From: Acidithiobacillus caldus ATCC 51756
GTDB lineage: Bacteria > Pseudomonadota > Gammaproteobacteria > Acidithiobacillales > Acidithiobacillaceae
Direction: 5' to 3'
Length of the DNA stretch: 64,000 nucleotides
Assembly: GCF_000175575.2 (NCBI RefSeq)
Contig: NZ_CP005986.1
Location: 627,549-691,548 of the forward strand
Below are positions 21,051 through 29,987 of the stretch, one piece after another. Within the stretch, counting starts at the first letter, position 1. Every line of letters begins with the position of its first letter. The notes under the pieces are model-generated. The model was not told the DNA's origin. It was given only the letters and a program-made list of their open reading frames with translations, and did not search any database. Made by a program: the position numbers and the translations under genes.

Positions 21051-23808
21051 ATGGACCGGTCGCGATATACCGATTCTCAGCTTGCGGCGATTGATCACCT
21101 TTCCGGTACCTGCACTGATCGCCTGTGCCGGCTCGGGCAAGACTGAGGTTGTGGCGCAGCGCGTGGTCAGCTTGTTGCGATCCATCACAGAGGGGGGAGC
21201 AGGCTGCGCCCCCGGCAATATCGTCGCCTTCACCTTCACCGACAAGGCCGCTGCAGAGCTGAAAGAGCGCATCCACGCCCGCTGCCACGGGGCCTTCGGG
21301 AATGTTACCGGCTTGGCGGAAATGTACGTCGGCACGATTCACGGCTACTGTCTCGAGCTCCTGAAATCCGAGGTGCCAGCGTACATGAAGTACGAAGTGC
21401 TGAACGAGGTGCAGCAGACACTGTTCATCGACCGTCACTCGAGATCATCCGGGCTGACCAGCAGCACCACGCTCAATGGCGTTACGCTCAAGCGCTACAC
21501 GGATACGCGCCACTATGTATCGGCTCTCTCCATCCTGCGCGAAGACAGGGTGATCGATCCGTCGCCGCTCGTAGGCAACTCTGTTGTCGCCGGACTTGCG
21601 AGCTATGAGCGGCTCTTGCACCAGAAAGGCTATCTCGACTACTCCGGCATTCTGAAGGAAGCCGTCAAGGAACTGCAGGGTAATACCGGACTGCGGCAGC
21701 GATTGGGCGAGCGCATCAAGCACATCATCGTGGACGAATATCAGGACGTGAACCCGATCCAGGAATCTGTCGTGCGCGAACTGGCATCGCTGGGGGCCGA
21801 CATTTGCGTGGTCGGTGATGACGATCAAACGATCTACCAGTGGCGTGGCAGCGATGTGCGCAACATCTTGGATTTCGAGCGCCGCTACGAGAACGTGACC
21901 CAGGTCAGACTGGAAGACAACTTCCGTTCTAGCGAAGGCGTGGTGGTCGTCGCGCGTGACTTTATTCGGCAGCTCCTGCGGCGCCTGCCGAAGGAGATGA
22001 AGCCGACGGCGGCACAGGAGTTTGAGGCGGGCGACATCGTCGCGCTCGGATTCGACTCACCGGAGGATGAGGCACAGTACATCGCAGACACCTGCAAGAC
22101 GCTACGGGGTTTGGCGATCCATGAGGGTGACGAGAAACGCGGGATCTCGTGGTCGGACATGGCGATCCTGTTGCGCTCTGTGCGGCGCGACGGCGGCGCC
22201 ATCACGGCGGCGCTGGATGCAGCCGGCGTGCCCTACGTCATTACCGGTATGGACAACCTCTTTGTCCAGCCGGAGGTCGAGGCAGCGCGGCAGTTGTTCT
22301 ACTTCCTTAACGGGGAAATTGACGAAGCCACGTTGCGAACGTCTTGGCAGGTAGCTGATCTCGGGATAGCCAAGAAGGCGCTCGATCAGGCAATTCAGGC
22401 TGCCGCACAGGCCAGGAAGGACATGCAGGATGCCAAGGTCGGTCAGTTCAAGGTCTATAACCTGCAGCGCCAATACATGGCCTTCCTCGAGAACGCCGGC
22501 ATCCGCGAGGAGAAGGTGCCGGGTCGTCGGGGCGAGGTGGTGTTCTACAACCTCGGCAAGTTCAGCCAGGCGATCTCCGACTTCGAGAGCATCCATTTCC
22601 ACTCGAACCCGGTCGAGAAATACCAGAGCTTCGCCGGCTTCCTCCGGCACCACGCCGAGAACGCTTACCCGGAGGGCTGGCAGGACAACGCCTTCGTCAG
22701 CCCGGACGCGGTACGGATCATGACCGTACATCAGGCCAAAGGCCTGCAATGGCCGGCGGTGTTCATCCCGCAACTGGTGAAAAATCGATTCCCAGCCAAG
22801 GGGGGCGGTGGGCGGACGGCCTGGCACCTGTTGCCAGACGCCGCCTTCGACAACGCGGTGCGCTACAAAGGGGGTGTCGAGGACGAACGGCGGTTGTTCT
22901 ATGTGGCCGTGACCCGCGCGCAGAAATTCCTGCACCTGAGCTGGGCGCCGCATGACGGCAACCGAACCGCGCAAGCGCCCTCGGACTTCTTCAACGAGAT
23001 GCTTGCCTCGAAGTACGTCAAGCGTCGGAGGCAGGACTATGCCGGGCGCAAGCGCCTCGAGCCGCAGCCGAAGGCATCGGTGGCAAACATCACGCTGTCG
23101 TTCTCGGACCTGAAGTACTTCTTCGAGTGTCCTTACCAGTTCAAGCTGCGCATCCTCTACGGGTTCAATGCCCCGTTGGACGAGGCACTGGGGTTCGGCA
23201 AGTCGCTGCATGACGCGCTGGCCGAAGTGCATGCACGGGCCCTACGGGGGGAGAAAATCAAGCCCGACGAAGCCAAGGCGCTGGTCGAACGGCACTTGCG
23301 TGCGCCCTACGCCTATCCAGCCTTGCGCGAAAAACTGGAACAGGCCGCCGAGAGGATCATCGAGGCTTATGTCAAGAAGAATGCTGCCGACTTCAAGAAT
23401 CTCGAGTTTTCCGAAAAGGCGATCGAGATTGCCCTGGGCGATGGCGTATCAGTGGCGGGCCGCATCGACCTCGTCCGTAAGATCGACACCGGCGAGGTGA
23501 CGATCGTCGATCTGAAGTCGAACGATCGTGCACAGGCCGAGGCGGTGACGGAAACTCAGCTGCACATCTACGCGCTCGGTTACCAAGAGCTTACCGGCCG
23601 GCCAGCGGACTACGTAGAAATCTACGAGCTGGACGAACAGAAACAGAAGAAACGCTCGGTGGATAACGATTTCATCGAGGATGTGAAACGGGATGTGCGT
23701 GGGGCGGCGATGGCGCTGCGGCGGAACGAGCTGACGCCGAACCCCCATAAGAAAACCTGCGGCCAGTGCGACTACTGCAACATGTGTTCGGCTGCGATCC
23801 GGAACTGA
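21051..23808 (+). pseudogene. UvrD-like helicase with C-terminal RecB-type nuclease, frameshifted near N-terminus
   Basis: Family-like translation starts at ATG 21051 (MDRSRYTDSQLAAIDHLSG, the Q-motif region), but one extra base, A at 21108, moves the rest into another frame, which continues with PALIACAGSGKT (Walker A) to 23808. The restored protein has about 918 residues. SF1A motifs are complete: IIVDEYQDVNP (motif II), VVGDDDQTIYQWRGSD (III), IMTVHQAKGLQWPAVF (V) and RRLFYVAVTRAQ (VI). The C-terminal third carries a PD-(D/E)XK nuclease (GRIDLVRK, TIVDLKSND, QLHIYALGY) and a probable Fe-S cluster from FFECPYQ plus CGQCDYCNMC. ATG 21019 would give an unrelated N-terminus. It is the first of three genes with a methyltransferase and a Res-like protein; likely a DNA-processing defence subunit. 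Confidence 0.8.
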
Positions 23809-23822
23809 AACGAGGGACAGGG

Positions 23823-29800: not shown

Positions 29801-29987
29801 TACGACAGGCGATTACCTGATGGTCGAGATCAAGGGCCAGATTGGCGATGCGCTGATCAAGAAGGCGGCGGCTGAACGCTGGTGCCGGGCGGTTACGAAT
29901 GACGGGCGGTTTGGGAGGTGGAGTTATCACCTGTGCTTCGGAGCGAGCGAGCTGCGTAAGGTGCTGGACGACGTGACCAAAGGTTGA
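26844..29987 (+). CDS. Type III restriction Res-like helicase-endonuclease
   Basis: 1047 residues. Superfamily 2 motifs are clear: Walker A ATGSGKT at residues 168-174, DEAH at 352-355 (MNDEAHH), the SATPFY motif III, and the C-terminal helicase motifs [34 protein letters not shown]. Near the C-terminus, YLPDFIVLL (Asp 981) followed by MVEIKGQ (Glu-x-Lys, about residue 994) forms a PD-(D/E)XK nuclease site as in type III Res subunits. It directly follows the methyltransferase and probably cleaves or translocates on DNA lacking the partner's methylation. The frame is intact. Confidence 0.9.
   Translation: [1047 protein letters not shown]

Follow-up and report, generated by a model that had tools for sequence, protein, structure and literature searches.

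The three adjacent genes described here, found in a 64,000-nucleotide stretch of DNA from Acidithiobacillus caldus ATCC 51756 (the window), encode a helicase–nuclease (HEL), a DNA methyltransferase (MOD) and a restriction endonuclease (RES). We give a probability of roughly 55% to a reading in which Mod and Res together distinguish self from non-self DNA and make the cut, and HEL is an exchangeable accessory that degrades the cut DNA. For the Mod–Res pair taken by itself, family membership and intact motifs make a type III-like sensor and cutter very likely. The observations behind the reading are the domains of the three proteins, the intact catalytic motifs of MOD and RES, and the recurrent linkage and modular swapping of the genes. 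In its favour, RES scores above the cut-off of family NF046055, MOD is close to type III Mods, and 19 of 49 HEL loci also hold Mod and Res; against it, most Res relatives have no nearby HEL and confidence in the AlphaFold models is low.

In the proposed mechanism, Mod and Res would be the two subunits of a type III-like restriction-modification enzyme, and Mod would methylate one strand of a short asymmetric site, marking host DNA as self. On unmodified invader DNA the complex would be activated through the SF2 motor of Res, and the PD-(D/E)XK domain of Res would cut. HEL, predicted to be an SF1 helicase of 3'-5' polarity that carries an Fe-S nuclease of the RecB/Cas4 type, would load on the ends made by Res and unwind and degrade the DNA, so that the cut could be neither reversed nor repaired. 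The sequence of these steps, the site recognised and the activity in defence are predictions. The accessory role suggested for HEL by its domains and recurrent linkage agrees with the ancillary role put forward in PMC5704561.

The Mod–Res pair and its setting

All three genes lie on the plus strand. HEL (21,019–23,808) ends 14 bases before the ATG of MOD (23,823–26,837), and RES (26,844–29,987) follows after a gap of 6 bases. The co-directional genes, both gaps and the domains claimed in the initial annotation were all recovered, the domains as UvrD-helicase and PDDEXK_1 in HEL, N6_N4_Mtase and SAP in MOD, and a Res-like third protein. The single promoter candidate, in contrast, did not hold up: a scan of the region for sigma-70-like promoters gave one site, which is on the minus strand, whereas shuffled sequences predict 2.5, and a promoter for the operon was rejected for lack of any excess above shuffled sequence.

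MOD is a beta-class amino-methyltransferase of 1004 aa. The alignment places DPPY (motif IV) before the AdoMet motif (motif I), which is the beta-class order looked for in a type III Mod, and the N6_N4_Mtase domain (24,765–25,721, plus strand) was matched at 3.7e-26. By sequence, the nearest solved structures are all type III Mods (6k0w, EcoP15I 4zcf and Mbo45V). A SAP domain was matched at the N-terminus (23,973–24,068, plus strand, 1.1e-6). Among the Mods aligned, this SAP-bearing N-terminal region occurs only in the window and in loci L069 and L070, and being limited to the three closest Mods it was rejected as a defining feature of the system.

RES, a protein of 1047 aa with an SF2 motor and a C-terminal PD-(D/E)XK domain, scored 1148.4 bits against NCBIfam NF046055 (BPTD_3080) over model positions 2–968 of 970, where the cut-off is 800; its match to Pfam ResIII was weak (5.4e-7). 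It keeps the SF2 motifs and, in its C-terminal nuclease region (29,661–29,984, plus strand), an intact E...PDF...EIKG, so that it resembles a type III Res by motif, the fold model being weak. The AlphaFold models of MOD and RES had mean pLDDT values of 57 and 60, a confidence too low for structural inference from the whole models. With these low-confidence models, Foldseek ranked the EcoP15I Mod first for MOD; for RES the best matches were HsdR and RadD, with a TnsA-like match to the nuclease region also listed, none of them with an E-value below 0.001. The phage collection contained no match to RES. We also noticed that the Res proteins of L073 and L080 have an additional C-terminal region of about 170–200 residues that is missing from the window protein.

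Upstream lies a recombinase module (12,779–20,799, plus strand). It contains two tyrosine recombinases (12,779–14,056 and 15,553–16,854) and a probable third in two parts (16,847–18,019 and 19,388–20,317), which was recognised by position and a weak integrase match; the two parts are probably halves of one gene split by an IS256-family transposase (18,013–19,326). An IS5-family transposase (14,343–15,398) also interrupts the module, and a helper-like ORF (20,320–20,799) closes it. Downstream of RES there are an ISL3-family transposase (30,261–31,478, plus strand) and an IS66-family transposase (31,711–33,282, minus strand). At strict thresholds HEL was not found in near relatives of the window genome. 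The broken recombinase module, the flanking transposases and the absence of HEL from near relatives suggest an island that was gained by horizontal transfer and has partly decayed. The earlier proposal, a composite restriction system borne on a mobile island with linked recombinases, has good support, and the three genes also occur together in other lineages.

The helicase–nuclease and its apparently damaged start

HEL combines a UvrD-like SF1 helicase and a Cas4/RecB-type nuclease in one protein. Profile searches matched it to UvrD-helicase at 2e-50 and to PDDEXK_1 at 4.7e-31, and a UvrD_C domain is also present. The nuclease domain (23,092–23,787, plus strand) carries Fe-S-type cysteines and the RecB/Cas4 motifs GxxxH, D, DxK and QxxxY. 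Residues are numbered here in the 896-aa version of the protein that begins at IACAGSGKT. The Fe-S cysteines postulated from the sequence at first reading are kept in 55–58 of 58 homologues: Cys671 is invariant, and Cys881, Cys884 and Cys890 are found in 55–56, gaps being the sole exceptions. Also invariant in the 58 homologues are the Gly and Lys of Walker A, the D, E, Q and D of motif II, and G694, H698, D784, K800, Q814 and Y818 of the RecB/Cas4 motifs; D798 is kept in 57, with a gap in the other. Overall, catalytic residues are kept in 52–58 of the homologues and those of the nuclease in 57–58.

HEL scores below the equivalog cut-offs of RecB (122.7 bits against 696) and AddA (118.2 bits against 707.7), and both assignments were rejected. 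Compared with the pfam12705 branch of UvrD-Cas4 helicase-nucleases, it has the fusion of a UvrD SF1 motor with an Fe-S Cas4/RecB PD-(D/E)XK nuclease and the neighbourhood, with a type III-like Mod and Res next to it, and it lacks an in-frame Q-motif start.

The initial annotation had placed the start of HEL at 21,051. This ATG does begin the homologous, Q-motif-like segment (21,051–21,117, plus strand; translations and alignment with L069 and L070), and its product MDRSRYTDSQLAAIDHLSG matches the start of the L069 protein, MDRSRFTESQLAAIGHVAG. Nevertheless, the ATG opens only 31 codons before a stop, and Walker A sits in another frame. The conserved frame is that of the ATG at 21,019, which gives 929 aa and bypasses the stop; its opening 33 or so codons are not homologous to relatives, with unrelated residues in place of the Q-motif segment. 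Aligned with L069, the window is 2 bases short in the stretch that leads from the start to Walker A. At this point the gene is open from its ATG in L069, L070, L071, L072, L073 and G214, and the L074 frame is open at this point as well.

It appears, then, that the window HEL is frameshifted near its start, just before Walker A. A real mutation is plausible, given that long genes elsewhere in the window (for example those for the carbamoyl-phosphate synthase large subunit and PmbA) align with almost the full length of their family models, but the shortfall of 2 bases may also be a sequencing error. Since the start and the Q-motif segment are out of frame, the HEL of this A. caldus genome is probably impaired or non-functional, and if the frameshift is real the locus now acts as a two-gene Mod–Res system. 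This defect and the partner swapping described below were both missed by the initial annotation.

UvrD- and RecB-type proteins function in repair. It is conceivable that HEL protects the host by repairing or clearing breaks made in self-DNA by the restriction enzyme rather than by attacking invaders, and repair functions of such proteins are discussed in PMC5704561; most Res relatives, however, manage without HEL, and the window has an intact Mod–Res pair beside a damaged HEL. We consider a host-protecting role highly improbable.

Partners of HEL and of Mod–Res

When 96 relatives and 398 genomes of the phylum were searched at strict thresholds, HEL was found only in the window genome and in genome G214. 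Mod–Res adjoins HEL in both, in the order MOD-RES-HEL in G214. Res homologues above the family cut-off were more widespread (11 of the 96 relatives and 27 of the 398 phylum genomes), and the loci fetched around them, some on short contigs, contained no HEL apart from the window and G214, with L057, where weak, partial UvrD-like matches lie near Res, as an exception. In the largest sampled clade of the Res tree no HEL was nearby in 31 of 31 cases.

The initial annotation had allowed that the helicase might accompany Mod–Res only here, which is not the case. The order HEL-MOD-RES is found in L069, a betaproteobacterial MAG (identities of 80, 70 and 78%), and, with one extra ORF, in L070, Arenimonas composti (73, 63 and 71%). 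Among 49 HEL loci of named genomes (L069–L117), which were picked by similarity to the window HEL so that the fractions are biased, 19 have both Mod and Res homologues. In the remainder there is only a Mod-like gene, or Dcm (in some cases with Vsr), or DruA with NurA, or nothing recognised; HEL is thus also accompanied by Dcm-type restriction-modification systems. In Athalassotoga, Blastomonas and Nitrosomonas plasmids, HEL is followed by a Mod and Res of other families.

Several other arrangements were seen around HEL. In L071 (3,403–8,486) and L098 (9,441–16,280) the UvrD-Cas4 gene is followed by DruA and a NurA-domain protein, in L098 also with a HerA-like ATPase, possibly a separate defence arrangement. 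In the actinobacterial loci L082 (2–9,683) and L093 (2,488–12,195) an OLD/GajA-like protein lies beside or near UvrD-Cas4, adjoining Res–Mod; by gene content, a Gabija-like pair is here combined with a type III-like system. In L069 (18,674–21,424) ZorA and ZorB of a type I Zorya system follow the HEL-MOD-RES operon at a distance of about 290 bases, and the long ORFs after them are probably ZorC and ZorD. This looks like a separate operon, and Zorya was rejected as a fourth component; no Zorya remnant was found in the window. Such adjacency in defence islands could reflect co-mobility.

The Mod–Res pair in turn is found with other neighbours. On plasmids of Shinella WSC3-e and A. tumefaciens F2 (L159 and L160), ZacA/ZacB/ZacC-like genes are followed by MOD and then RES. 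RES identity is 83% between WSC3-e and G214, and in G214 HEL takes the place of the ZacABC-like genes. Shinella PSBB067 (L166), whose RES is 87% identical to that of WSC3-e, has MOD, RES, a GajB-like helicase, DrmA and DrmB. L159, L160 and L166 are thus closely related Mod–Res pairs on Rhizobiaceae plasmids with differing defence neighbours. The label for HEL requires at least five changes on the Res tree, and the partner labels require 27 on the HEL tree, built from the homologues retrieved (61 rows); both trees were made quickly and contain long branches and some forks that are left open. Because of these changes the recruitment of HEL to Mod–Res looks recurrent. As judged from gene content and the trees, HEL and Mod–Res are separable modules that exchange partners, and an obligate three-subunit enzyme was rejected, given that most Res proteins have no HEL and partners swap.

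It could be argued from the same data that the two subunits Mod and Res make up a complete type III-like system, and that HEL, a defence or repair gene in its own right, merely shares the island. The many Res homologues with no nearby HEL would fit this, as would the closely related Mod–Res pairs (Res 83–87% identical) adjoining HEL, ZacABC-like genes or GajB-like/DrmA/DrmB, the presence of HEL with DruA-NurA and other partners, and the frameshifted HEL beside an intact Mod and Res in the window. On the other hand, independence does not account well for gaps of 6–14 bases, for the same three-gene order in L069 and the window, or for a linkage that recurs with several distinct Mod/Res families. 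We regard an independent HEL as possible, if somewhat unlikely.

In an actinobacterial clade of BPTD_3080-type Res proteins, EVSG stands in place of EIKG, with the catalytic Lys changed to Ser, in all seven genes sampled (L083, L093, L102, L103, L106, L110 and L165), and UvrD-Cas4 is near six of the seven. Together with the almost invariant nuclease residues of HEL, this could mean that destruction is mainly the work of the HEL nuclease, Res being chiefly an ATP-driven motor that delivers HEL to unmodified DNA. However, EIKG is retained in the Res of the window, L069, L070 and G214, a nearby Lys in the EVSG proteins might substitute, and the plasmid of L165 gave no HEL in a search made without a positive control. 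Moreover, since the change from Lys to Ser is a single evolutionary event and the six loci near HEL were fetched through HEL, its link with HEL is only suggestive, and HEL as the main nuclease seems quite improbable. A broader scheme, in which BPTD_3080-type Mod–Res is a plug-in targeting module handing unmodified DNA to an adjacent destroying machine (UvrD-Cas4, ZacABC-like proteins, or DrmA/DrmB with a GajB-like helicase), and Res of the EVSG clade no longer has a cutting site of its own since cutting is left to the partner, we hold to be improbable.

Comparison with known systems

The locus had been put forward as the best candidate for an undescribed system in the window. As an association it is not new: Hudaiberdiev et al. 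2017 (PMC5704561) reported type III Mod–Res as the commonest neighbourhood of UvrD-Cas4 fusions and proposed, as a prediction only, an ancillary unwinding and cleavage role for the fusion protein; furthermore, Res belongs to a named NCBIfam family. No experiment on any UvrD-Cas4/Mod–Res locus was found in the open-access literature searched, where nothing relevant on BPTD_3080 or on Zac was found either. The partnership was predicted in 2017 and apparently never tested by experiment. The window matches Fig. 6 of that paper in having an SF1 helicase–pfam12705 Cas4-like nuclease fusion beside a type III-like Mod and Res, and the alternative Dcm/Vsr context given there is also seen among our HEL loci. 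It differs in its BPTD_3080-type Res, the SAP domain on Mod and the frameshifted HEL, the paper having neither a named system nor an experiment.

With BPTD_3080/NF046055 the window shares a Res above the cut-off and an adjacent Mod, but the common members of this family in the same phylum are Res–Mod pairs with no HEL nearby and only about 33% identity to the window Res. The classical type III system EcoP15I likewise combines a beta-class Mod with an SF2/PD-(D/E)XK Res, and its Mod was the top Foldseek match; its Res, however, is barely detectable by sequence profile (E 0.03), the window Mod is larger, and HEL and SAP are extra.

Murray et al. 2021 (PMC8259958) described three-gene m4C type III systems with an additional helicase-like ATPase gene immediately 5' of mod-res, as here. 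Their third protein is described as SF2-like and without an endonuclease motif, whereas HEL is an SF1 protein with a PDDEXK_1 nuclease domain, and this assignment was rejected. The UvrD-type helicase of HEL is similar to GajB profiles of Gabija, and in two actinobacterial relatives HEL has an OLD-like protein nearby; unlike GajB, HEL bears its own nuclease, and no GajA-like (OLD/TOPRIM) gene was present among the neighbouring window ORFs scanned, which argued against Gabija. DISARM was rejected as well, with no DrmA or DrmB in a PADLOC scan of nine window proteins and these genes found only in the relative L166.

Helicase-nucleases that lack characterisation are repeatedly attached to restriction systems, and the close Mod–Res homologues with differing partners, together with the clade of substituted Res proteins, make it testable whether such partners are subunits or island neighbours. 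Relative to the systems above, what is new here is the same HEL-MOD-RES order in L069 and L070, the separability of HEL from Mod–Res, the Res clade with Ser for Lys, the HEL frameshift, and the restriction of SAP to the three closest Mods.
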